From an uncultured Tateyamaria sp. (GTDB lineage: Bacteria > Pseudomonadota > Alphaproteobacteria > Rhodobacterales > Rhodobacteraceae): 64,000 nt of DNA. Shown piece after piece: positions 1 through 11,902 of the stretch; positions within the stretch are counted from its first letter, which is position 1, and the number at the start of each line of letters is the position of its first letter. Below the pieces are notes generated by a model. The model searched no databases. It had not been told where the DNA came from and saw only the letters and a program-made list of their open reading frames with translations. The stretch covers positions 1-64,000 of the forward strand of contig NZ_CANNDN010000005.1 in the NCBI RefSeq assembly GCF_947503465.1, written 5' to 3'. Position numbers and translations under genes: made by a program.

Positions 1-304
1 CAGTTTCCAAATCCTGTTGGTCCGCCTGCCATCCCGGCAGGTCCGAGAAAACCGGCAAGCGCCGCCGCTGGCGTCGGTTCCGGTCGAGAATTCCGGTTCC
101 TCCCACGCGCAGGCGCGCGGTTCCCTCCCAAATTCACGCCCTCCACCGGGTTGTCACGGCCCCGCCGGGCCGCAGGACGGGCTTTGCCCTTACCTGCTCT
201 GCCCTTCGGAATGCATGGGCATTCCAAAGATCAGAACAGGAAGGCCCGCCCATTGGCGGAAAGGGGAAGAGACCCGGCCCGCGTCACGCGAAGGAGGGTC
301 ACAA
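1..304 (+). promoter_or_regulatory. Leader region upstream of ardC-like gene (partial)
   Basis: No convincing gene lies in these 304 bases, although the reading frame of the next gene stays open through them. The stretch is GC-rich and contains short inverted repeats, for example CCTGCC (25-30) with GGCAGG (36-41). A good ribosome binding site (GGAGG) sits just before 305, which fixes the start of the downstream gene. Long structured leaders also precede the genes at 5264 and 8545. What begins left of the window cannot be seen. Confidence 0.4.
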
Positions 305-1189
305 ATGACCGCAGAGAAGTTTGACGTTTACACCCATGTCACCAATCAGATCATCGCGCAGATCGAGGCGGGAACGCCGCCCTGGCGCAAACCGTGGACC
401 GGCGGCGGGGCAGGGGTCAGCTTGCCGGAACGGTTCAACGGCGAGGCCTATCGGGGCATCAACATCCTGATGCTTTGGGCGACAGCGATGGCCAAGGATT
501 ACAGCTCAGCCCGCTGGATGACGTTCAATCAGGCCAAGCAGCTTGGGGGCCATGTCCGCAAGGGCGAGAAATCCGCAACCGTGGTGAAGTACGGCACCGT
601 CGAGCGCGAGGACGAGAACGGCGAGGCGCGTCAGATCCCCTTTGCCAAGGCCTACCGCGTGTTCAATGCCGACCAGATCGAGGGCTTGCCTGCCGAACTC
701 TACATCCTGCCCGATCCGCCCCGTGATCTTGGCACCGTGGCCGACCCCGAGCTGGAGGCGTTCTTTGCCGCGACAGGCGCGCAGATCGACGTGACCGAGG
801 AGCCGCGTGCCTATTACAACATCAAGACCGACCGCATCCACATGCCGCCCGTTGGCACGTTTCATCGAGCGGCAGGGTATTTTGGCACCTTGGCCCATGA
901 GACAATCCACTGGACAGGCGCGACAAAGCGGCTGGACCGTTTGGGCCGGTTCAATGACCGAAAGGCCTATGCGTTCGAGGAGCTGGTCGCGGAAATCGGT
1001 AACTGCATGCTTTGCGCGCAGATCGGGGTGGAGCCCGAATTTGACCAGAGCGCGGCCTATGTCGAAGGATGGCTTGAGGCGATGAAGGAAGACAGCCGCG
1101 CGATTTTCCGCGCCGCGTCAGAGGCCCAGAAGGCCGTGGATTACATCATGGAGCGTACCGCGCAGGCCGAGCGGCTGGCGGCAGAGTAA
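305..1189 (+). CDS. ArdC-like antirestriction protein (zincin-like)
   Basis: 294-aa protein of the ArdC family, which binds single-stranded DNA and protects incoming plasmid DNA from host restriction during conjugation. The N-terminal half carries the ArdC-type PPWRKPW segment. The C-terminal half has a zincin motif, HETIH at residues 198-202, followed by a conserved Glu-rich helix (EELVAEIG) that would supply the third metal ligand. The open frame extends upstream to 17, but the ATG at 305 has a strong GGAGG and matches the family start. It is followed by its own terminator. In Rhodobacteraceae plasmids such genes accompany DUF3768 and ParB-like genes, as here. Confidence 0.85.
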   Translation: MTAEKFDVYTHVTNQIIAQIEAGTPPWRKPWTGGGAGVSLPERFNGEAYRGINILMLWATAMAKDYSSARWMTFNQAKQLGGHVRKGEKSATVVKYGTVEREDENGEARQIPFAKAYRVFNADQIEGLPAELYILPDPPRDLGTVADPELEAFFAATGAQIDVTEEPRAYYNIKTDRIHMPPVGTFHRAAGYFGTLAHETIHWTGATKRLDRLGRFNDRKAYAFEELVAEIGNCMLCAQIGVEPEFDQSAAYVEGWLEAMKEDSRAIFRAASEAQKAVDYIMERTAQAERLAAE

Positions 1190-1212
1190 CAGACAGCCCT
1201 GTCGAATTATTC

Positions 1213-1242
1213 AGGCCCCCGTCAGTAGGTGGGGGCCTTTTT
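1213..1242 (+). terminator. Rho-independent terminator after ardC-like gene
   Basis: Perfect 8-bp stem AGGCCCCC / GGGGGCCT with a 10-nt loop, followed by a T run. It lies 24 nt after the stop codon. Confidence 0.85.
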
Positions 1243-1356
1243 GCGTTGTGGAGTGATCTTGGGCGGGGCGGTTTCAGGGTGACCTGTCGGCGGGCAACCT
1301 GAAGGCCACCCGCCGACAGGCCCGGCGCTTCGCGCGGACGCCCCAAAGGGGGTGGG

Positions 1357-1617
1357 TCAACTGGCGGCATCTAGTTCAGCCTGGATCGCGGTTAGCTCTG
1401 AGCTCGTTTGTGAGATAATGTCAGCTGTGCAGCCTACGCAGAAGATCGGCCTGGTCGTAAATCCATTCTTAACCTTCGGGATTTTGAAGCATTTCCGCCC
1501 AGTCCCGACAAGCTTTGAGCATCTGCTGCATTTCGTAGCCTTGCCGCAAATGTGGCTGATAGGTTTGCCCGTCGACTGGGATAGAAGTGAAGGTGTCTTA
1601 CCCTTTGGCTTTGCCAT
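1357..1617 (-). CDS. Small zinc-finger protein coupled to helicase
   Basis: 86-aa protein, no family recognised with confidence. The middle holds a Cys-rich stretch with C-x2-C pairs: KCSRC near residue 30, then FCVGC about 30 residues later, with other cysteines at ICGK and RKCF. This would suit one zinc ribbon or finger; the N-terminus is Lys-rich. Its ATG overlaps the last 20 nt of the helicase gene upstream in another frame, so the two are probably translationally coupled. The arrangement suggests an accessory or nucleic-acid-binding subunit of the helicase, which is inference. Confidence 0.65.
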   Translation of the reverse strand: MAKPKGKTPSLLSQSTGKPISHICGKATKCSRCSKLVGTGRKCFKIPKVKNGFTTRPIFCVGCTADIISQTSSELTAIQAELDAAS

Positions 1618-3598
1618 GCATTAGCCCCTTATAGCGGCGTGTAATTGAATTGAGTATGTTCTCAAGTTCAGCTTCAGCCGCCTTGAACTCTTCGACTGAC
1701 CATTCTTTTCGCTGCTTGGGAAAGCTGGCCTTCAATTCCTTGTTGATGAGAGTCACGCCTGCGACGAAGTTGTTCGTTGCTGCGACCCCCAAATTTATGA
1801 GATCGCGGCCAGCGCGATTTATCTCAAGCCTGTTCATAAGCAGGTTTGCGGCTCGGTTAACCTGGTCATTCAGGCCCTTTCGTTGGGCTTCCCATTCACG
1901 TTGAGGTAGAATCTGAAATGGTTGCGCCGCTTTGGTCATCGTACGACCGCTGGACTTAGCTAGTACTATTGCTTCAGCCTGTTCGGGATCGAGGCCGAGC
2001 TGGTCCAGTTTTTCCCTTAGCTCGTTGATGATGTCTTCTTGCTCAGCTGACGTGAATTGCTCTTCGATCAGTTCGTCAACGATCTCGTAGTTGACGACTG
2101 CTTGCTCGCCGAGTTTCATTCGGGCTTGCCCGCCTTTGACTTCATCAGACGGCTCTGGCTCTTTTCCGCCTATGACGTCTTCCCAGAATTTCTGATCATC
2201 GCTTTCAAAGAGCTTAAACTCTCGAAGCCTCTCGTCGAGGTTCATACCCGCATGGGTTACAATATGCCCGTAGTTGTCAGGATGGCCCGGGCTGTTTTGC
2301 ACAATGACGCGGAGAACCCTGCCGACAAATTGAACGTAGGGTGCTAGTGTGCGGAAGGGCCGGAATATGGCTGCAACACTCAGTTTTGGATGATCAAAAC
2401 CCTCGCCGAGCATCTGAACCTGAACAATGACGTCTAGCTCGCCGCTCTTCAGACGACGTTTGACTTCCACCTTCTTGTCTTCGTCCATTTCACTATAGAT
2501 GAGATCGGCACTAAAACCTCGCGCCTCGTAAAGTCGGACAATGGACCGAGCGTGATTGACGCTACATGCAACGGCGATGAGTTGGTGCGCGGTCCCAGTC
2601 TCGCGTAGCTGTTCGAGGCGCTGGAGACTGTTGTCGACAATCGTTTGATTGCAAGGCTCCGAGAGAGCAATCCCGCGGCTAAACCAGTCTTTCTCTTTCA
2701 TCTTCAAGACTTCATCGAGCGAGTAGGTCTTGGTCTCACCGTGTGCTGTGAACTCTAACTCATTTGGTGCGGCGTACGATGCTGTCAGTCGTTTGATGTA
2801 TCCTTTGAAAGTCGCTTTTTTGAAGGGATAACGATAGACGAGATCTCCCTCGATTTCCTGTGCGTCACCCCGGAACGGAGTTGCCGTCATGTTGACAACT
2901 CGCGCATCCCCGAAATGTTCGCATACCTTTTGCCAGCTGGCCGCTGGCGCGTGATGAGCCTCGTCCACAATAAGCATATCGAAGAAATCTCTTGGAAAGC
3001 GATGCAGCCACTTGTCGGGGTTGGTAGAGAGCTGCTGCACATTCGAGATGACAATATGCGACTTTTCGCAAACTGAGATGTTGCCGGTGTCCAGCGTGGT
3101 CGCAAAGGGTCCGCCAATCATCGCTTCGTCGCTCAAGATTCCGCGCCTACGCCAGAAACACTTTTGGCGGTTGGTCACGTCCATCGACTCGAACAGACCT
3201 TCTTTGATCGTCAAGTTTGGTGCGACGATGAGCACCCTACCTGTGGCAATCCCAAATGGAACAATTGCAGCGATCCCGGATTTTCCACATCCAACAGGAA
3301 TTTGAACAATCGCGGACTTACGGCCCGAACGAAAGTACTCGTAGAGCGCCTTGTAGGCTTCGACTTGCGGTTCCCTGAGCTGAAGATTTTCTTCGATATG
3401 AGCAGGTGTCCTCATGAAGAACTGCTCAAGGGGGATATTCGACCTTACCCATGCGTCTAGGTCTTTCTTGCTGAATAGCCATTTGCTGCCGATCTTGTTG
3501 GAAGGAAGCGCCCCCTCCCTCGCGAGATCGTACAGTGCGGTTTTCCCGATTTGTAGGTAGCGTGCGGTCTCTTCGATTGTCATCCACTCTTCGGCCAT
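1598..3598 (-). CDS. SF2 DEAD/DEAH helicase with N-terminal excisionase-type HTH
   Basis: 666-aa protein. Residues 6-52 form an excisionase/MerR-like HTH (MTIEETARYLQIGKTALYDL). A superfamily 2 helicase core follows: Walker A PVGCGKS (101-107), DEAH box (212-215), TAT motif III (238-240), GEGFD (398-402) and motif VI QFVGRVLR (423-430). The type III restriction / DEAD-like fold is common in defence loci. The start at 3598 is chosen because AGGAG precedes it; the open frame runs to 3781 but that extension is low-complexity. About 280 nt separate it from a divergent HEPN-type gene. Base composition looks less GC-rich than the flanking backbone, suggesting an inserted cassette. No nuclease or methylase domain is evident. 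Confidence 0.8.
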   Translation of the reverse strand: MAEEWMTIEETARYLQIGKTALYDLAREGALPSNKIGSKWLFSKKDLDAWVRSNIPLEQFFMRTPAHIEENLQLREPQVEAYKALYEYFRSGRKSAIVQIPVGCGKSGIAAIVPFGIATGRVLIVAPNLTIKEGLFESMDVTNRQKCFWRRRGILSDEAMIGGPFATTLDTGNISVCEKSHIVISNVQQLSTNPDKWLHRFPRDFFDMLIVDEAHHAPAASWQKVCEHFGDARVVNMTATPFRGDAQEIEGDLVYRYPFKKATFKGYIKRLTASYAAPNELEFTAHGETKTYSLDEVLKMKEKDWFSRGIALSEPCNQTIVDNSLQRLEQLRETGTAHQLIAVACSVNHARSIVRLYEARGFSADLIYSEMDEDKKVEVKRRLKSGELDVIVQVQMLGEGFDHPKLSVAAIFRPFRTLAPYVQFVGRVLRVIVQNSPGHPDNYGHIVTHAGMNLDERLREFKLFESDDQKFWEDVIGGKEPEPSDEVKGGQARMKLGEQAVVNYEIVDELIEEQFTSAEQEDIINELREKLDQLGLDPEQAEAIVLAKSSGRTMTKAAQPFQILPQREWEAQRKGLNDQVNRAANLLMNRLEINRAGRDLINLGVAATNNFVAGVTLINKELKASFPKQRKEWSVEEFKAAEAELENILNSITRRYKGLMHGKAKG

Positions 3599-3877
3599 GC
3601 TAGACTCCTTTTGCCGTATGCTGCCATTTGATGCCAAATGATGCAACAGAAAAGGCTTGATTGCGTCGCCTTGGGTCAACCCGCTGATCCTCGTGACGCC
3701 TCTACAGAAACGTAGGCGTCGGTCTCTCGTGGCTAACGCTGGTGTCGTGTGAGCGTCACGAGTCCTCGGGTCAGTTGTCATACAAGGTTTCCCAAGAAAT
3801 GCCGGACCAATCTGTTTACATGAGAACCGCAGGCTGGAAGGCTCTCACCATTTAGGGCTTCGCCGAAGGAATCTCAG

Positions 3878-4582
3878 ATGCGGAAGATTGATCCCGAAGG
3901 AGTTTGGGAAGATTTTGAAGATCAGCTTGATGAACAGTCGCAATACTACAGAAGCTCTTGGAACACGCTCACCGGTGCAGCTGATAGGAAGATCGCAACC
4001 GAAAACTACGCTCTCACTATTGGCGTCATGTTCGAAGGCTATATCAATGACCTTATCTTTGCCTATGCGAACCGCGACTGCTCTCGCGTGATGCAGCACC
4101 TTGAGAACAGTGTGCGCGAAACGCTTGCAGCCATTCCCAAGGCGGAAGCCGCGTTCAACAAGTTTGCGGACTTTAAACACCGGGATCACCTGACTAAGTC
4201 AGAGCTTAAGGCAATCCTCGACCCGGAGGGCCGAAACACGTCTTTTCCGAATTTTGTCGCTATTGAGGATCGTGCGCAGCAATGGCTTGCCGATCACCAC
4301 CGCAACAGATTCACCGGATTGAACGCCCAGCAAAAAGCGGTGATCAACGCTGTAATAGCGACTCGCAACAACCTTGCGCATCGCAGCAAGGGATCGCTGG
4401 ACCGCCTGAACGAAGCGTTCAGTGCAGGAGCGCTTTATCCCACCGGCCTTCAGCGAAACGTCAACCGCATTCAACAAGCTGGACATTACCTGAAGGCAAA
4501 GCATCCCCCTAATAGTCCAGATACCCGCGCAACGATCATGGGACATCTGCTGAAGGACGCAGCCGAGAGCATCGTCCATTGA
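3878..4582 (+). CDS. HEPN-domain protein (putative RNase, RiboL-PSP-HEPN-like)
   Basis: 234-aa protein. The segment RNNLAH at residues 163-168 fits the HEPN RNase signature R-x4-6-H. The earlier FEGYINDLIF segment (about 52-61) resembles the first helix of the RiboL-PSP/MAE_28990 HEPN families. HEPN proteins often cut RNA in toxin or abortive-infection systems. The gene is divergent from the helicase at 1598-3598 with a shared intergenic region, which suggests joint function. GAAGGA precedes the ATG. The HEPN call rests on one short motif plus context. Confidence 0.6.
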   Translation: MRKIDPEGVWEDFEDQLDEQSQYYRSSWNTLTGAADRKIATENYALTIGVMFEGYINDLIFAYANRDCSRVMQHLENSVRETLAAIPKAEAAFNKFADFKHRDHLTKSELKAILDPEGRNTSFPNFVAIEDRAQQWLADHHRNRFTGLNAQQKAVINAVIATRNNLAHRSKGSLDRLNEAFSAGALYPTGLQRNVNRIQQAGHYLKAKHPPNSPDTRATIMGHLLKDAAESIVH

Positions 4583-5263
4583 CCGGTACCATGCCAGAAG
4601 CGGTCCATTGTGCCAGCATGCACCGCCGAATGCCGGATCAACCACTTACGCGGGTCAAAAACCCTGGGCAAAACAGACGCGGTTTTGGCAGGTTTGCGCC
4701 CATCACGCCAGTAACGATAGGTTTTCGTTATCGTAGCCAGTGTCTTTGTATCTGACTTTGGCCCCTGACGCATCCTGACGGCTGCGCCACCGCGCTCTTC
4801 AGGCTCCAGCCGGTAACGCCGGCTTACGCCCGGAACATACGCCTCGATCCTTCCCTGCTCACATCCGCCACCTCCAATGTCTCCTGAGGAGCCATAGGAC
4901 GTGGCGTTCGCATGGTCAGGTCTCAAGGCGATGATCCGCCCTGGCAGGTTTCGATCGCGGGGGCAGGGGATCTGCGATCCCATCTTTCCCTTGTCCCCTT
5001 GGGGTTCGCGCGTGCCGCGCGATACGCCGCTGCGGGGACGTTGCTTTAGAACCCGCTGGGTTCTCGCGCACGCAACCAAAATAGACCTCCCCCGTGTCCT
5101 CGGCTGCGCCTGCGGGCCGCACCAGGTCGGTCGATTTCTGGTGGCGTTTGCTCACTCCGGCACTTCGCCAGTGGGTCAGGTTTTAGAGACGACGCCCTCA
5201 AGGGGCTTCTCTCAAAACCAGACACCAAAGGGGCAAGGACCCCAACCACAAAGGAGAGACCAG
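4583..5263 (+). promoter_or_regulatory. Long structured leader upstream of DUF3768 gene
   Basis: About 680 bases with no ORF I would defend; frames open here on both strands have no family resemblance. Several hairpins are visible: ACGATA/TATCGT around 4715-4735, AGAACCC/GGGTTCT (5048-5064), and a larger GTTTT-GAGA / TCTC-AAAAC stem around 5185-5220 with an inner GCCC/GGGC. It probably carries the promoter and an untranslated leader for the backbone genes that follow. Parts resemble the leader before 8545 in style and in the final AAGGAGAGACC ribosome site. Confidence 0.35.
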
Positions 5264-5659
5264 ATGACACAAGCAAAGGACACTTCAGGCGAGTGCGAAG
5301 ACGAAGGGGCAATCGCGGCCAAGATCGCGGAGCAGAACGACCGCTTCCGCACCACGTGGGGTGCTGATTTCACGGTGCCGGGTCAGATCGTCATGACGCG
5401 CGGGGTGTCGGACCTCTCGCCCGCCGCCAAGGCGATCATCCTGCAGCGGGTTCAAAAGTTCGCCACCTTCACCGAAGACAACGACCCCTACCGCGATCAC
5501 ACCTTTGGTGCGTTCGAGTTTGAGATTGGCGGCAACAGCTACCGCATCTTCTGGAAGATCGATCTCTACGACACTGAATACAGCATGGGCAGCGATGAGT
5601 CAGCGAACCCGCAGGTCACCCGCCGCGTCCTCACCATCATGCACGCCTCTGAATACTGA
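5264..5659 (+). CDS. DUF3768 domain protein
   Basis: 131-aa protein of the DUF3768 family, function unknown, common on alphaproteobacterial plasmids. Recognisable landmarks are the N-terminal IAEQNDRFR, the central FTEDNDPYRDHTFGAFE, and the C-terminal WKIDLYD...RRVLTIMHASEY. The reading frame is open from 4901, but the ATG at 5264 follows AAGGAGAG and matches the family start. It precedes the ParB-like gene by 72 nt and is likely cotranscribed. Confidence 0.85.
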   Translation: MTQAKDTSGECEDEGAIAAKIAEQNDRFRTTWGADFTVPGQIVMTRGVSDLSPAAKAIILQRVQKFATFTEDNDPYRDHTFGAFEFEIGGNSYRIFWKIDLYDTEYSMGSDESANPQVTRRVLTIMHASEY

Positions 5660-5731
5660 TCGGAACCGCCCTGAGCCGGGGCGGGTCCAAACCAGATGCA
5701 TTTCTTCAATCAACCACAAAGGAACATCCCA

Positions 5732-7582
5732 ATGACAAACCAAACTCAAATCACAACCGGGACCGCAATCATCTATGCCTCGCTGGATCAGCTTTACCTG
5801 CATGATCTGAACCCACGCCAAGAGGTGGCGCAGGAGGCCATCGAGACCCTGGCCGAGAGCATCAAAACCTGTGGCCTGTTGCAAAACCTCGGCGGCCTGC
5901 AGGACGATAGCGGCAAGGTCGGCATTGTGGCTGGGGGTCGCCGCCTGCGGGCGCTTGCCTTTCTCGCGGAGACCGACCCGGCGCAGGAGAGCGTGACCTC
6001 CATTCCCGTATTGTTGGCCAAGGATGCGGAACAGGCCGAACTCTGGGCCAACGCCGAGAACACCGCGCGCGCCGATCTCGATCCAGCCGACGAAATCCGC
6101 GCCTATGGCCGGATGGCAAAGAGCAATGCAAGCGCTGACGACATCGCTAGTGCCTTTGGGGTCACCGTCGCCCATGTCAAAGGCCGGTTGAAACTGTCGG
6201 ACCTGCCCGAGGCGGCGCTGGATGCGCTCAAGGCCAAGAGCATCAATCTGACCGTTGCGCAAAAGCTCACCACAGCCGATGATGAGAAGCTGATCTTTGA
6301 GGTTCTGCGCCTCATCGACGAAGGCCAGATCACCAACACGGGTCAGATTGATGGCGTGTTGCATCCCAAGGCGGTGAAATCCACCGACCGTCGCGCCACC
6401 TTTGTTGGCGTGGAGGCCTATGAGGCTGCAGGTGGCAAGGTCTCGCGCGATCTCTTCTCCGAGGATGTCTTCTTCGAGAACCGCGACATTCTGGACGAGG
6501 TATTTGCGCTGCGTCTTCGCGAAGCAGCGGACAAGGTGATGAAAGAGGCAGGCTGGGCGTGGGTCATGCCCCACGATGAGTCCTACCTTGGCTGGCACGT
6601 CATGGATGAGCACAAGTTCGAGCGGGTCTATCCGGTGGAAGGTGTGCTGTCCGATGATCTCACCGAGCGCTACGACGAGTTGGCAGAACTGGCCGAAGGT
6701 GATGTTCTGAATGAGGCTGGCCAAGCCGAGTTGGACAGCCTGCAAGCGGTGCTGGACGGCGCGTTCACGGAGGCACAAAGGGCCATCGCCGGGTGTGTCG
6801 TCCATGTTGGCAACAATGGCCAGCTTGAAGTCACCGGCGGGCTGATCAAAGCCGCAGACAAGAAGGCGGCGATTGAAGCCGGGATACTGGCCAAGTCACA
6901 TCATGGCGGCAGCGGTGAGAAGACCCCGAAGAACCCCTATTCGCAAAAACTGCAGGCTGATCTGGAGGCGATCAAGCTGGCCTCCCTGCAGAATGCCATG
7001 CTCGACCAGCCCGATCTGTTGCTCGATCTGCTGACGTTCCAGTTGAGCGGCATGACCGGGTTTCGGGATGTGCTGGATATCAGTCTTGGCACGCCCTGCA
7101 ATGCGCCCTCTACGGAAACCGGGTTTGACGTGGACAAGCGTCTGAGCAAACCATCATCCTGTCCGGAAGACCGCTGGGGCGTTGACCTCATAAAGGCCTT
7201 TGCCGCCTTCAAGAAGAAGGGCAAGAAGCACCGCGATGCGGAACTGGCTCGGCAGCTGGCCAAACTTCTGACCGGCGGGGATGAGGTGTTCGCAGCTGTG
7301 TTGGCCGACAAGTGCAACGCGGGCATCCGCAAGGTCTGGACGCCAACGACGGAGAACCTCTTCAAGCGGATTTCCGGGGTGATGATGGACGGCATCTACT
7401 GTGATCTGTTGGACCTTGCTCCGACGGACGAGCGGGCCAAGGCGTTCTCCAAAAAGAAGAAGGCCGACAAGGCCGAAGCACTTGAGAACTTGTTCTCTGA
7501 TCCGACCACCCAGAAGCTGCTTGGCGTGACGGAGGCGCAGAAGGCGCGCATCGACGCGTGGCTGCCTGACTACTTCGCGTGA
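5732..7582 (+). CDS. ParB-like nuclease-domain protein
   Basis: 616-aa protein with an N-terminal ParB/Spo0J domain: LDQLYLHDLNPRQ near residue 20, then VGIVAGGRRLRAL (the GxRR box) and ENTARADLDPADEIRAY near 110-125. A KorB/ParB-type HTH follows (IASAFGVTVAHVKGRLKLS). The long C-terminal part is Lys-rich near its end and unlike canonical ParB. No ParA gene adjoins it, so a classical segregation role is uncertain; similar solitary large ParB-like genes are part of many Rhodobacteraceae plasmid backbones. The ATG at 5732 is preceded by AAAGGAA; the earlier in-frame ATG at 5696 lacks a good site. Confidence 0.8.
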   Translation: MTNQTQITTGTAIIYASLDQLYLHDLNPRQEVAQEAIETLAESIKTCGLLQNLGGLQDDSGKVGIVAGGRRLRALAFLAETDPAQESVTSIPVLLAKDAEQAELWANAENTARADLDPADEIRAYGRMAKSNASADDIASAFGVTVAHVKGRLKLSDLPEAALDALKAKSINLTVAQKLTTADDEKLIFEVLRLIDEGQITNTGQIDGVLHPKAVKSTDRRATFVGVEAYEAAGGKVSRDLFSEDVFFENRDILDEVFALRLREAADKVMKEAGWAWVMPHDESYLGWHVMDEHKFERVYPVEGVLSDDLTERYDELAELAEGDVLNEAGQAELDSLQAVLDGAFTEAQRAIAGCVVHVGNNGQLEVTGGLIKAADKKAAIEAGILAKSHHGGSGEKTPKNPYSQKLQADLEAIKLASLQNAMLDQPDLLLDLLTFQLSGMTGFRDVLDISLGTPCNAPSTETGFDVDKRLSKPSSCPEDRWGVDLIKAFAAFKKKGKKHRDAELARQLAKLLTGGDEVFAAVLADKCNAGIRKVWTPTTENLFKRISGVMMDGIYCDLLDLAPTDERAKAFSKKKKADKAEALENLFSDPTTQKLLGVTEAQKARIDAWLPDYFA

Positions 7583-7713
7583 AGCCAAAGGCCGGGGCGG
7601 CGCATCGCCGCCCTCGCCATCCACCGAGGACCAGAACACCAGCGTTCTGTCATGACCGACCGAGCAGCGCGTTCAGCCGTCTTTCTGATACTCCAGCTAT
7701 GGGAGCCCCAGAC

Positions 7714-8229
7714 ATGCCAAGCCTCACCACATCCGCGCGCCGCGTCTGGACGTCGGCGCAGCTCTACATCGGGTTCCACCGCGACCCCAACGGCAAGCAG
7801 CGCGGCACCCCCCATGTCTGGCCCCCGAAGAATGCGCGCGCCGCGCTCCATGACAAACCTGAGGATCAGGAGGTCTTTGTGGTGGTCAAGGCAGCCGATG
7901 GAGATGCCTCGCAAGATGTCCAGATCAAACTGCGCCCCGACATGATTGTCCTGCGTCGTGATTGCCCGGACACATGGCAGGGCGTGGTCATCGAGCAATA
8001 TGAGCTTGCGGTCAGGTTCGGCGATGTCTCGATCCGCATCAACTATGATGGGTCCATCACCCGAAAGGATGCCGACAGCACGACTTGGGTCGAGGCCGAT
8101 GGCGGCATTCTTAAAAAGACCGAGTTTGTCGACGCGGCGATGTCAGCCGATGGCACGGAATTGTCACGCCGGACGCCGGACAATCTCGCCGCCATTACGC
8201 TGCAAGGCGTGCTGTCCAAGGCGCGATAG
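7714..8229 (+). CDS. Conserved hypothetical plasmid protein
   Basis: 171-aa protein with no recognised catalytic motif. The sequence is soluble and rich in Asp and Val, with no membrane segment. The upstream in-frame sequence from 7579 is Pro/Arg-rich and looks like untranslated leader; the ATG at 7714 with GGAG upstream is the best start, though 7699 is possible. It follows the ParB-like gene in the same direction and is probably part of the same backbone unit. Confidence 0.6.
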   Translation: MPSLTTSARRVWTSAQLYIGFHRDPNGKQRGTPHVWPPKNARAALHDKPEDQEVFVVVKAADGDASQDVQIKLRPDMIVLRRDCPDTWQGVVIEQYELAVRFGDVSIRINYDGSITRKDADSTTWVEADGGILKKTEFVDAAMSADGTELSRRTPDNLAAITLQGVLSKAR

Positions 8230-8544
8230 CTGAGTCACACGGTCCGCCAGTGTGGGTTGATGGACGTCTCAAGTGCGTGCGTGAGGCAGGTGCAGCTCGA
8301 GCGCGTCATCGTCCAGGTGAACAAGAACAGTGGCTCCAGCGAGAGGACTGTTCATCCCTAGGTCTTTCCCTTTTGCTCAAAGATGTGGATCGCACGGGGG
8401 CGGCCCGTCCGTGCCCTCCGCTGCGCTCCGGCAAGCACAAATACGGCTTCCACGCCCATGGCGCGGACCCTCCGCATTTTCGCTTGCGACCGGGCCTCTT
8501 GCCCCCGTGCTGTTTGATCCCCATCGCAAAAAGGAGAGACCCAA
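8230..8544 (+). promoter_or_regulatory. Leader region upstream of small conserved gene
   Basis: 315 bases without a credible gene. It is GC-rich with imperfect inverted repeats around 8393-8420 and ends in an AAGGAGAGACCC ribosome site before the ATG at 8545, very like the site before 5264. It probably holds a promoter and a structured leader. Confidence 0.35.
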
Positions 8545-8751
8545 ATGACCAACCACTACGTCGCCACCGTCCCCGTCACATTCACCGACACTGACGGCCA
8601 GGAACGCACCCGCTTCCAACGCGTGGGTGCTATGTTCCGCAACACCCGCACCGGGGATGGCTCAGAGTTCTTCAGCCTCAAGCTCGACTTCCCCGTCGCG
8701 GTCTCGGAGCTGGTAATGTTCCCGCCGAGCTCCCGGGAACCGCAGGACTAA
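8545..8751 (+). CDS. Small conserved hypothetical protein
   Basis: 68-aa protein beginning MTNHYVATVPVTFTD. It shows alternating beta-strand-like segments and no membrane or metal motif. AAGGAGAG lies at correct spacing before the start, and a strong terminator follows 16 nt after the stop, so it is probably a real, separately ended gene. Function unknown. Confidence 0.65.
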   Translation: MTNHYVATVPVTFTDTDGQERTRFQRVGAMFRNTRTGDGSEFFSLKLDFPVAVSELVMFPPSSREPQD

Positions 8752-8767
8752 ATCCTCTGCCGAGGAG

Positions 8768-8793
8768 GGGCCGCCGACAGGCGGCCCTTTTCC
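8768..8793 (+). terminator. Rho-independent terminator
   Basis: Perfect 8-bp stem GGGCCGCC / GGCGGCCC around a GACA loop, followed by TTTTCCT. It closes the backbone block before the mobilisation region. Confidence 0.9.
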
Positions 8794-9008
8794 TGTTCCA
8801 TGCGATGCGGTGCAGATGCCATCAACTCTCGCCAAGTCCAAGTTCAGCGATTTGACGCCGAGTGCCGCCGGGAAGATCCCGTGGTCCTCGGGCAGCTCTT
8901 AGCCCTCAGAGCTGTCCTTGCTTTTGCGCCGGACGCCCTTGGCCTGGACGTGCCGAGCGAGGCTCAGCGCGCAGTTCTTGCCAAGGCAACATGAATGTTT
9001 GAATCGGT

Positions 9009-9046
9009 ACGTAAGTATATGATTGACACGTAGCTATAGGATTGGC
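9009..9046 (+). repeat. Two adjacent 19-bp imperfect direct repeats, possible oriT/regulator site
   Basis: ACGTAAGTATATGATTGAC (9009-9027) is followed directly by ACGTAGCTATAGGATTGGC (9028-9046), 15 of 19 positions identical. They lie about 55 bases before the mobilisation genes. A TTGACA (9023-9028) overlaps the junction, so they may be an operator on the mob promoter, an oriT accessory-protein site, or both. The rest of 8794-9099 shows no credible gene. Confidence 0.5.
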
Positions 9047-9099
9047 GATAGTGGGAGACGAAGGCGGAAGTTGGCAGGAAATAGGGGGTCTTTCTTCGC

Positions 9100-9681
9100 A
9101 TGACGCGCAGCAAACGACTGACAGAGGCGGAGCGCATGGAGATTGTGCGCGAGGCGGCCGAGGGGGTGTCCAGCACCGAGCTGGCCGCGCGCTTCGGTGT
9201 GACGCCCCGGGCTGTCCAATACACGCTCAAGGCCGACGAAGATCGTCAGCGCGACACCTCTGTGGCGACCGCCGCGGTGAGCCTCAAGGTGACCCCTGAG
9301 GAGCTTGCAGCCTTTGACGCGGTGCTGGCATCAGCTGGCATCGAAACCCGCTCAGAAGGACTGCGCCGGTTGATGCAGGCCGCTGGTGGGGTCTTTGTGC
9401 CGGACGCCCAACTGGCTGCCGAGATGGAGCGCTACCGGGCGTCCCTGAATGAGGTTGGCAACGGGGTCGCGCAGATCGCCAAACAGATGACGCTGGCCAA
9501 CCGAAGCGGACAGGGCGTAGGCCTCGAATTCTCGGAACTGCGCCTCGCACAGATGCGGGGTCTGTCGCGGTTCATCCTCGATGCGGCTGATGAGATCGAC
9601 TTGCTTGTGCGCCGTCGTCGGGACGCGATGCGGCTGACGGCTGTCGAGGCTTTGCGGGAGTTTGCCCATGCCGCGGAGTGA
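9100..9681 (+). CDS. VirD1/MobC-like relaxosome accessory protein
   Basis: 193-aa protein. Residues 1-45 form a HTH (TEAERMEIVREAAEGVSSTELAARFGVTPRAVQYTL). The remainder resembles VirD1/MobC accessory proteins, which help the relaxase recognise and melt oriT: VSLKVTPEELAAFDAVLASAGIETRSEGLRRLM is a ribbon-helix-helix-like segment, and EVGNGVAQIAKQMTLANRSG is the MobC-type core. It overlaps the relaxase start by 14 nt, indicating coupling. A fusion of HTH and MobC-like parts is typical in Rhodobacteraceae mob modules. Confidence 0.75.
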   Translation: MTRSKRLTEAERMEIVREAAEGVSSTELAARFGVTPRAVQYTLKADEDRQRDTSVATAAVSLKVTPEELAAFDAVLASAGIETRSEGLRRLMQAAGGVFVPDAQLAAEMERYRASLNEVGNGVAQIAKQMTLANRSGQGVGLEFSELRLAQMRGLSRFILDAADEIDLLVRRRRDAMRLTAVEALREFAHAAE

Positions 9682-11902
9682 TGCTGTCGACGCCGTCACC
9701 GGCGAGATTTTCCGGGAGGGCTGGAGCCGGATCCGCGGCTCGATGCAGGGGCTGAACACGTCGAAGTATCGGCAGTTCATTCGTGCCTCGGCGGGGCACC
9801 GCGCGGCCGTCTTCAAGGCGATCCGAGGCGGCGGCACGCAGAGCAAATCGCAGCTCTCAAACCAGCTGCATTACCTCACCACCAAGTCCACCCATATCGT
9901 GGACTCGAGCGGGTTCCTGGACGGGAAGAGCAAGCTCGAGAGCGGAGAGATCAAAGACCTCACGGAGCGGTTTGCCAAGCGCTGGAGCGCGGGGTTCAAA
10001 CCGAAGCTCGGGCAGACCACGCATCTGCTGATGTCCTTCCCGATCGGGACGCGCGGGACGGATGTGCGTGACATCGCGACGGATGTGGCCGAGCGGTTCT
10101 TGCAAACCGATGAAGGGCATTTCGACTACATCATCGCGGTGCATGAGGACCGGGATCATCCGCACGCGCATCTGGTGCTGAACCGCCGCTCGCAGGAGGG
10201 TGAGTTCTTCTATCTCGCGCGGGATCACCGGTTCAACTATGACGACTTCCGCCTTGCGATGGTCGAAGAGGCCGAGAAGTACGGTGTGCGTCTCGAGGCC
10301 ACCCGCCGCGTGGATCGGGGCGTTGCGCATTACCCGCCGCGCATCCGCGAGGTCTATGCCGCGAAAGAGGAAGAGCGGGAGGTGATCGAACGGGAACGCG
10401 TCGGCGCCGACCTCACCCGGACCCTGGAAGAGATCGCCAATACCAAATCCATCTACCAGGCGCTGGCCGCCGAAGCCTCATCCGAAAACCGCGCAGACGT
10501 GGCGGACGCGCTTTTCCGCGCGGGTGAGATGCTGGCGCGCGGCGGGCAGGTGGCCCAGGAAGGAGACATCTACATGGCCGAGGAAAACAGCTTCGACGAG
10601 CTCAGAAGCCGCTACGCGGAGAAAGTCGAGCGGGTCCAGACCATGATCGCCGCGCGGACCGATGCGGAGCGACCTGCGCTCGAGAAAAGCCTCAACGAAA
10701 TCCAGGCGCGGGTGCAACATATGCAGCCCCTTGGGATCCGATCCCAGACGCTGACCGAGCGACCGTCGGAGGGCGGGGTGTATTCGGAAGCAAACATCGA
10801 GACCACGCGGCTGGATCGGCTCGAGAGACCGGAGGTGCGGGCGCAGGTGGATGCGGCGCTGCGCGGGACGGGGATCAATACGACGACCGTCATGGCGCGG
10901 TTGGAGACCGGGGCGCAGAACGCCGCGCTTGAGCGCCAGTGGATCGCAGACGATCTGACCAAGGTGGCCGAAGAGAACGGGCTGAACCTCGAACGCCGCC
11001 GTGATCTCGAACAGGCGCGCGAGGTTCTGAACCGCGTCCATGTGGAGCTTGGGACCACCCTCGAGCGCGCCGGTGTGCTACGCGAAGACGGGGTGATCGA
11101 GGAAGACCGCGAGCTGGATATCCATTTCGACCAGCGCCATGTTGAGGACACAACGCGGGCCGTCCGCGCAGAGATGCGTGCGGAGGGCATGAGCGAGGCG
11201 GAGCTCGCACGCCAGACCCTGAACGTCGAAGAGCGCGTCTTCGACCGGATCGAGGCAGAACAACAGAGCTATCTGCGAGACCGGCCCGAACTCCTGGCGC
11301 GACCCACGGATGTGATCCGTCTGGATCAGGAGGGTGCACCGCAGATCAGGGACAGGGTTCTGGCCGGTCGGATAACCCAAGAGATCGAGGCGGCGCGTCT
11401 TGGCGCCTCGACAGATCAGCCGGTAGCGGAGGCCGTGGCACAGGACCTGAAAGCCCGCTACCCGGACATGCCGGATCATGTGGCGCGGGGTCTGGGGGAT
11501 ACCTACGCGCAGGTTGACGAGGCGCTGCGGGCGGAACGAGAGCCCGCACCCGTCGAGACTGAAGAATTGCGCCGCGTCATTGCGCATGAGCGCGAGGGCA
11601 ATCTGTCGTCACCTTTTGCCGACGAGAGCCAGCGCATGAGCTATCGCGCCGAGGTCGATCGGCTTCTGGACGACGATCAGACCGCACGGCTGGGATCCGG
11701 GGACAGCGACGCTCTGAAAGACGTGGTCGAGGATCGGCTCGATCGGCTTTATGCGGCGAAAGCCTATCTGCAATCCGATGCGACCACGGCGAACAGCGAC
11801 GCGGCCCGGGTCGTGGTCGAAGAGATCGCCGAGCGGGAATACGAGGCGCAATGGCTGAGCGAGACCCATGGCGAGCGCGAGAAAGGCCAGACCCATGGGT
11901 AG
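9668..11902 (+). CDS. VirD2-type relaxase
   Basis: 744-aa conjugative relaxase that nicks oriT and is carried to the recipient bound to the DNA. The metal-binding motif is clear: HEDRDHPHAHLVLNRR with H164, H166, H168 and N172. The N-terminal region (residues 10-60) should hold the catalytic tyrosine, with LNTSKYRQF a candidate. Beyond about residue 230 the protein is a long charged helical region, likely the T4SS signal and oligomerisation part. ATG at 9668 is preferred over the in-frame TTG at 9662. It is followed with overlap by the coupling protein gene. Confidence 0.85.
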   Translation: MPRSDAVDAVTGEIFREGWSRIRGSMQGLNTSKYRQFIRASAGHRAAVFKAIRGGGTQSKSQLSNQLHYLTTKSTHIVDSSGFLDGKSKLESGEIKDLTERFAKRWSAGFKPKLGQTTHLLMSFPIGTRGTDVRDIATDVAERFLQTDEGHFDYIIAVHEDRDHPHAHLVLNRRSQEGEFFYLARDHRFNYDDFRLAMVEEAEKYGVRLEATRRVDRGVAHYPPRIREVYAAKEEEREVIERERVGADLTRTLEEIANTKSIYQALAAEASSENRADVADALFRAGEMLARGGQVAQEGDIYMAEENSFDELRSRYAEKVERVQTMIAARTDAERPALEKSLNEIQARVQHMQPLGIRSQTLTERPSEGGVYSEANIETTRLDRLERPEVRAQVDAALRGTGINTTTVMARLETGAQNAALERQWIADDLTKVAEENGLNLERRRDLEQAREVLNRVHVELGTTLERAGVLREDGVIEEDRELDIHFDQRHVEDTTRAVRAEMRAEGMSEAELARQTLNVEERVFDRIEAEQQSYLRDRPELLARPTDVIRLDQEGAPQIRDRVLAGRITQEIEAARLGASTDQPVAEAVAQDLKARYPDMPDHVARGLGDTYAQVDEALRAEREPAPVETEELRRVIAHEREGNLSSPFADESQRMSYRAEVDRLLDDDQTARLGSGDSDALKDVVEDRLDRLYAAKAYLQSDATTANSDAARVVVEEIAEREYEAQWLSETHGEREKGQTHG

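Follow-up and report, generated by a model that had tools for sequence, protein, structure and literature searches.

The locus described here lies near the start of a 64,000-nucleotide (nt) stretch of DNA, referred to as the window (assembly GCF_947503465.1, contig NZ_CANNDN010000005.1, positions 1 to 64,000), from an uncultured Tateyamaria sp. Three genes were found between positions 1357 and 4582. They encode a superfamily 2 (SF2) helicase with an N-terminal helix-turn-helix (HTH), a small cysteine-rich protein (hereafter the partner) and a HEPN-like protein transcribed in the opposite direction. The features are as follows.

1357..1617, minus strand: Cys-rich partner protein (P0002), 86 amino acids (aa), with the pattern CxxC...C...CxxC (open reading frame (ORF) and profiles)
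1598..1617, minus strand: 20-nt overlap of the helicase 3′ end with the partner 5′ end (sequence)
1598..3598, minus strand: SF2 helicase gene (P0001), 666 aa, with N-terminal excisionase-type HTH (Pfam, alignment A4, AAGGAG)
1601..2191, minus strand: family-specific C-terminal region of the helicase, residues 470-666 (alignment A4)
2306..3385, minus strand: helicase core, residues 72-431, RadD/XPB/ResIII-like by sequence (Pfam, NCBIfam, alignment A4)
3437..3586, minus strand: HTH_17 domain, helicase residues 5-54 (Pfam, alignment A4)
3599..3877: intergenic region of 279 nt between the divergent starts (sequence)
3878..4582, plus strand: HEPN-like protein (P0003), 234 aa, R163-x4-H168, divergent from the helicase (motif, family, model)

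The helicase was matched by the Pfam models ResIII (3.7e-26), HTH_17 (5.3e-15) and Helicase_C (3.9e-12), all of which exceeded the Pfam cut-offs, as did the DEAD model. In alignment A4, the residues of what we take to be the Walker A (G105, K106), DEAH (D212, E213, H215), TATP (T240, P241), GEGFDH (E399, G400, D402, H403) and QFVGR (Q423, G426, R427) motifs were invariant in all 16 sequences. Together with the Pfam results, this places motifs I, II, III, V and VI in the window protein, and an earlier first-pass annotation of this DNA had correctly described a helicase with the full SF2 set behind an excisionase-like HTH. The mechanically called ORF begins at 3781. The true start is likely 3598, because AAGGAG is located just upstream of the ATG, HTH_17 starts at residue 5 and many full-coverage close homologues are 666 aa long. 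The shorter A4 relatives, which start at about residue 59-73, are missing HTH_17. Across the C-terminal region, G535 was the sole residue invariant in the 16 sequences, so no conserved catalytic centre was seen there, and a nuclease hidden in the helicase C-terminus was ruled against. No nuclease domain was seen in the helicase or in the partner.

The distribution of the helicase is patchy. At E<=1e-80, it was found in 3 of 390 genomes of the order and 3 of 398 genomes of the phylum, with its own genome counted in both. The idea of a phage gene was set aside after no match to P0001 at E<=1e-30 was found in 50,697 phage records; relatives do occur on IMG/VR contigs. From 578 helicase relatives, the best 80 were taken. 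Of these, L051-L066 were kept; the 64 loci L067-L130, at 23-31% identity, were regarded as generic SF2 helicases and left out. L066 was excluded from the partner locus count given below by the E-value limit of that count.

The partner ORF starts at 1617 and the helicase stop codon occupies 1598-1600, which agrees with the earlier description of an 86-aa Cys-rich protein starting inside the helicase gene. Overlap or near-contact of the two genes recurs in relatives, where the partner start is located between 40 nt upstream and 31 nt downstream of the final base of the helicase stop, and translational coupling is likely. Assignment of the partner to a zinc-finger family was dropped, as the matches were weak and mixed. 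Alignment A5 (48 members) gave one zf-PARP match (0.0092) and two Churchill matches (best 0.0014), with 23 families matched weakly, and P0002 itself matched no named zinc-finger profile. The partner is annotated as a hypothetical protein wherever plasmid records list it. In the incomplete PLSDB gene table, the Paracoccus aerodenitrificans, Rhizobium, Aminobacter and Mesorhizobium records examined have no partner row; a protein of this size is easily overlooked in annotation.

The pairing of the two genes on plasmids was analyzed with tblastn. A Xanthomonas relative of the helicase matched 39 plasmid records at E<=1e-60. The Xanthomonas partner matched 26 records, all within the 39 and each adjoining the helicase match; among them, two pairs span the start of a circular record, and in three near-identical Zymomonas records the matches are separated by about 530 nt. 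With P0002 as the query, 7 further records of the 39 were found, all adjacent. The Mesorhizobium partner matched 6 records, comprising 3 new adjacent cases, 2 already counted and 1 orphan. In total, the partner lies beside the helicase in 36 of the 39 plasmid records. The remaining three are two Rhodococcus records and one from Polymorphobacter. Rhodococcus L007 has a divergent small ORF in the partner position, matched at 2.9e-11 by the database-only profile described below. Polymorphobacter L050 has a shortened helicase (annotated coding sequence of about 530 aa) and no partner. In Pseudonocardia L146, an orphan partner stands just downstream of an IS630 transposase, with no annotated helicase in the 6.5 kb examined.

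A survey of loci carrying helicase relatives at E<=1e-60 comprised 44 rows (39 distinct loci), and a profile-detected partner was located right after the helicase stop in 24 rows (19 distinct loci). This count alone is circular because its profile included partners of these very loci. An independent profile was built from 120 database homologues, excluding the loci's own sequences, and was tested on 5,587 ORFs no longer than 130 aa. The 19 helicase-adjacent ORF rows ranked first, 14 of them at E<=2.9e-11 and five window-type copies at 0.006-0.016, and the next match was at E=0.68. A 6-Cys profile trained on the partner type of Rhizobium, Aminobacter, L035 and L037 joins that type to the window type. 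The same profile also matched minus-strand ORFs in L123, L127 and L129 that run across the helicase match (E 8e-6 to 0.001, high bias); these were taken as artefacts. The helicase and partner distance matrices were correlated, with a Mantel r of 0.90 for 16 pairs and 0.84 for 12 dereplicated pairs (0/20,000 permutations each). Among the 20 rows without the partner, L038, L039, L051 and L055 have too little downstream sequence, 15 have another small ORF and L050 has none. On the sequence evidence, the helicase and the Cys-rich protein form a recurrent two-gene unit, and the coupling proposed in the first-pass annotation holds well beyond the window.

Both proteins were compared with known systems using PADLOC-DB 2.0.0, without curated cut-offs. 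The helicase matched 21 families at E<=1, the best of these matches (9.7e-17) covering part of a type IV enzyme model of 945 positions, and we read these as generic helicase or HTH matches; the partner had no match. Among characterised families, the relatives of the helicase include RadD, XPB and the type I/IV restriction helicases. It reached no NCBIfam equivalog cut-off, and only the excisionase-HTH domain model passed. The window protein shares the core and motifs of RadD/XPB/ResIII helicases, the RadD model spans its residues 73-432, and the solved chains of RadD and XPBII match it by sequence. However, its scores are far below the cut-offs (83 of 720 bits for RadD, 23 of 610 bits for XPB), and it differs in having HTH_17, its own C-terminal region and a separate small partner. 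Hachiman and PsyrTA are two-gene defence systems with a helicase and, like the window pair, combine it with one other gene as mobile cargo. No Hachiman model is among the 21 families matched, and the PsyrT match is weak (3.8e-5). HTH_17 also matches mad1, the model for the HTH protein MAD1 of MADS (1.5e-10, 56.5 bits), but falls short of the 80-bit NCBIfam cut-off; the MAD1 models are only 49 and 60 positions long, whereas the window HTH is fused to a helicase. In the titles and abstract openings examined, nothing was recognisable as a helicase with a Cys-rich partner. No specific PADLOC 2.0.0 model was recognised for either protein, and the pair may be uncatalogued.

The genomic context is suggestive of defence. 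On the 5.9-kb Klebsiella plasmid L008, the gene order is RelE, NadS, rep, helicase, partner, mobC. For the Rep of this plasmid, matches at E<=1e-20 were obtained in 2,944 plasmid records, 1,107 of them over most of the query, and among 60 Rep matches listed there are three plasmids of 2,476 bp (Rep 82% identical). These are too small to hold the pair, which is therefore cargo on the Klebsiella plasmid. We examined ten sister plasmids whose Rep is 82-87% identical to that of L008. The slot after rep contains PADLOC-recognised genes in 5 of the 10: an Old/GajA-like ATPase (L140, 6.1e-19), a HEC-06/GmrSD protein (L141, 2e-68), an AIPR/AbiU protein (L143, 3.6e-23), part of PD-T4-4_A (L145, 1.6e-77) and a TIR protein matching ThsB (L149, 2.5e-14). 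In L142, the slot is occupied by a GTPase with a weak LeoBC match (7e-9). The slot after rep varies widely in content among small mobilizable enterobacterial plasmids with related Rep proteins and is a possible hotspot for the discovery of defence genes. Elsewhere, PADLOC defence neighbours were found within about 5 kb of the pair at 7 of 19 distinct partner-bearing loci. They are AbiEi/AbiEii (L037, L138), a dGTPase (L138), IetA/IetS (L139), SduA (L002), type II restriction-modification (R-M) genes (L041, L046) and R-M-like genes (L001). HipA near the pair in L040 had a weak match (2e-7), and a caspase-like neighbour in L043, a helicase relative without the Cys-rich partner, had no PADLOC match.

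We consider the operon of the HTH-SF2 helicase and its overlapping Cys-rich partner a candidate anti-invader module, directed against phages or plasmids and travelling as cargo on plasmids and islands, with a probability of roughly 0.6. This reading draws on the gene anatomy, the recurrent pairing, the correlated divergence and the defence-gene contexts; the last of these, with the sister-plasmid slot, also makes the defence role suggested in the first-pass annotation plausible. The two-gene module itself is real and recurrent, and its role is probably immune. The helicase and partner would form a complex via the helicase C-terminal region. The HTH and the partner may assist this complex in recognising certain DNAs or DNA structures, or in loading onto them, and the ATP-driven helicase would then displace proteins from invader replication intermediates or dismantle them. 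Because no nuclease domain was seen, we infer that the helicase would block or dismantle invading DNA, with the partner as an adaptor. The neighbouring HEPN-like gene would be a separate candidate RNase in the same cassette.

Several observations weigh against this reading. The second CxxC is absent from one partner type, so a zinc site is not universal in partners. The 6-Cys window partner has a weak sequence link to the other types (E 0.006-0.016 among the 5,587 ORFs, hhalign probability 37%) and its tie to them is mainly positional; the Rhizobium/Aminobacter/L035/L037 type escapes the database-only profile. The 39 plasmid records include many near-identical ones, correlated divergence could arise from shared inheritance of the locus alone, and 15 of 39 distinct helicase loci carry another small gene instead of this partner. 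In the sister-plasmid slot, two genes in L144, an acyltransferase in L148, a DUF4231 protein in L149 and a 718-aa HTH protein in L150 had no PADLOC match, and L147 has no annotated gene there. The L145 match spans 231 of 460 model positions, which may mean a truncated gene. L141 was selected for its DUF262 annotation, and the slot count without it is 4 of 9 sister plasmids. At 12 of the 19 distinct partner-bearing loci, no clear PADLOC match was found among the genes scanned. The genes for these neighbour scans were selected from their annotation or by inspection, with no matched control set, and in the window the PADLOC scan covered only the helicase, the partner and the HEPN gene.

A more specific version of the anti-invader reading builds on those 15 loci (L042, L043, L052-L054, L056-L065), in which a different ORF of 106-150 aa starts between 19 nt upstream and 56 nt downstream of the helicase stop. 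This type was found in helicase relatives from Peribacillus, Leptospira and viral contigs, and no convincing Pfam match was obtained in the five ORFs examined. Tentatively, the locus may represent an uncatalogued immune module in which a nuclease-less SF2 helicase works with a swappable small gene as the adaptor that decides the target. This gene would be Cys-rich and finger-like in Pseudomonadota and the different 106-150-aa protein in Leptospira, Peribacillus and viral contigs, with a HEPN RNase added in the window lineage.

The pair could also resemble a toxin-antitoxin system, in which the helicase is harmful alone and the partner restrains it until infection; such an arrangement would be compatible with a defence role. 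The gene overlap fits it, and so do the shortened helicase of L050, the one partner-less plasmid relative of this class, the L146 partner behind its IS630 transposase, and the three near-identical Zymomonas records, in which the partner is beside a helicase that matches over only 34% of the query. However, these cases are very few and the partner gene comes after the helicase gene, and we regard this explanation as rather doubtful.

A role in plasmid maintenance or replication, with the helicase aiding carrier replication or fork restart and the partner as a DNA-binding cofactor, is less probable still. It would be consistent with the RadD/XPB-like core and with the Klebsiella plasmid, on which the helicase gene overlaps rep and is followed by the partner. 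A replication helicase is disfavoured by the 2,476-bp plasmids, which have a Rep of the same class and no room for the pair; moreover, sister plasmids have defence-like genes in the same place, and elsewhere the pair is found on large contigs with no rep beside it.

The surroundings of the three genes include these further features.

305..1189, plus strand: ardC-type gene (ArdcN and MPTase-PolyVal), within the shared stretch (Pfam)
4695: end of homology to L001 and L013 (alignments)
5264-5659: DUF3768 gene of the element backbone (Pfam)
5732-7582: ParB-like gene of the element backbone (Pfam)

Plasmid p2 of P. aerodenitrificans (L001) contains a four-gene stretch including ardC that corresponds to window positions 1-4695 (93.4%), and the same stretch is found on L013, a contig of a metagenome-assembled genome (window 233-4695, 91.5%). 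Both alignments end at base 4695; in L001, this point and the annotated end coordinate (5735) of a recombinase gene are 16 nt apart. The cassette had been proposed to be inserted between ardC and the DUF3768/ParB backbone; its homology to the two replicons does end at one shared base, but the proposed placement is loose, as ardC belongs to the shared stretch. Another uncultured Tateyamaria contig (L012) is 100% identical to window 1-11579, and these 11,579 nt reach the end of the stretch compared. The identity of at least 11.6 kb suggests recent transfer or very close genomes. G333, a genome of the same genus, also has a 100% identical helicase and is possibly one and the same genome. The region upstream of DUF3768/ParB is variable in nine backbone relatives (L161-L169, with L161 cut by the contig end), with no shared slot seen. 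In one of them (G929, L164:3371-6193), CBASS nucleotidyltransferase-like and DUF2235-like genes were noticed by eye upstream of the ParB-like gene.

Differing codons between the window and L001 or L013 (synonymous/nonsynonymous) numbered 70/12 and 89/10 in the helicase, 14/4 and 13/2 in the partner, and 27/2 and 25/5 in the HEPN gene. Change is mostly synonymous in all three genes; the cassette is therefore real, and selection acts on its genes, which are more than chance ORFs. The G+C content at third codon positions (GC3) is 0.582 in the helicase, 0.575 in the partner and 0.587 in the HEPN gene, against 0.786 in ardC and 0.742 in ParB, which makes a common foreign origin of the three genes plausible.

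The HEPN motif is defined as Rx4-6H with a polar residue following R (PMC3710099, in the part of that source consulted). The window protein has R163-N164-x3-H168, N164 being the polar residue, and R163 and H168 of its RNNLAH motif, noted in the first-pass annotation, were invariant in 37 of 37 sequences of alignment A2. Its homologues fall into 53 protein clusters at E<=0.001. In the profile search that had been proposed as a check, P0003 scored 12.8 bits against HEPN_RiboL-PSP (PF18735), under the cut-off of 28.4, whereas 18 of 27 members of alignment A1 matched this model at E<=0.5 (best 9.5e-7), and the homologue P0052 carries the PF18735 domain in the protein database. The predicted structure is all-helical, with HEPN toxins as the top structural matches, and the fold match is suggestive only. 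Motif and family thus support HEPN membership, and the protein is an independent candidate RNase. It shares the R-x4-H with HEPN/MNT toxins and HEPN_RiboL-PSP proteins but, by eye, has no recognised MNT gene directly beside it.

The first-pass annotation had proposed that the three genes act together, which would make a defence system whose helicase complex senses the invader and whose HEPN RNase is the effector. The genes are kept together, with mainly synonymous change, in the window type, L001 and L013 (91-93% DNA identity), and their GC3 is similar. The HEPN gene is, however, transcribed divergently, and co-occurrence counts led us to reject a three-gene unit. In one collection scan (up to 7 kb on each side, often less), this helicase was missing from 19 of the 21 genome loci with a HEPN homologue, the other two being cassette copies. 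The same was true of 5 of 6 plasmid records, the sixth being the cassette copy L001, and of 6 of 6 viral contigs (4-11 kb examined in each). All three HEPN loci or records bearing this helicase are therefore cassette copies. None of the five other HEPN plasmid records is among the 39 helicase plasmid records. Three of the five were checked and had no helicase or partner match at E<=1e-3; they have Shedu, R-M, recombinase or nucleotide-metabolism genes nearby, and two have other helicases. The helicases near HEPN in L004 and L006 do not match P0001 at E<=1e-3. Conversely, all 16 distinct partner-bearing loci that are not cassette copies have the pair without HEPN, within the stretches examined. 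Beside HEPN, recombinases are present in four loci and prophage-like genes in one group; no other clear conserved neighbour was seen. In L014 and L131-L134, HEPN homologues (76-77% identical) adjoin genes that by eye resemble phage tail genes, and HEPN is possibly a cargo gene there. Since it is mostly found without this helicase, HEPN is an autonomous mobile gene, carried in the same cassette but outside the helicase-partner unit, and joint action of the three genes is improbable.

Least probable of all is an accessory RadD-like DNA-repair helicase with no immune role. RadD and XPB are among the characterised families matched, but the protein reaches only 83 bits against the RadD cut-off of 720, and its distribution within its order and phylum is patchy.

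If the helicase and its Cys-rich partner serve in defence, the module is compact, at about 2.2 kb, and its carriers range from mobilizable plasmids of 5.9 kb up to large chromosomal contigs. Small plasmids of this kind would offer, in the slot behind rep, a ready spot for seeking further defence genes. If true, a protective helicase free of a nuclease would make it testable how helicases alone stop invading DNA.

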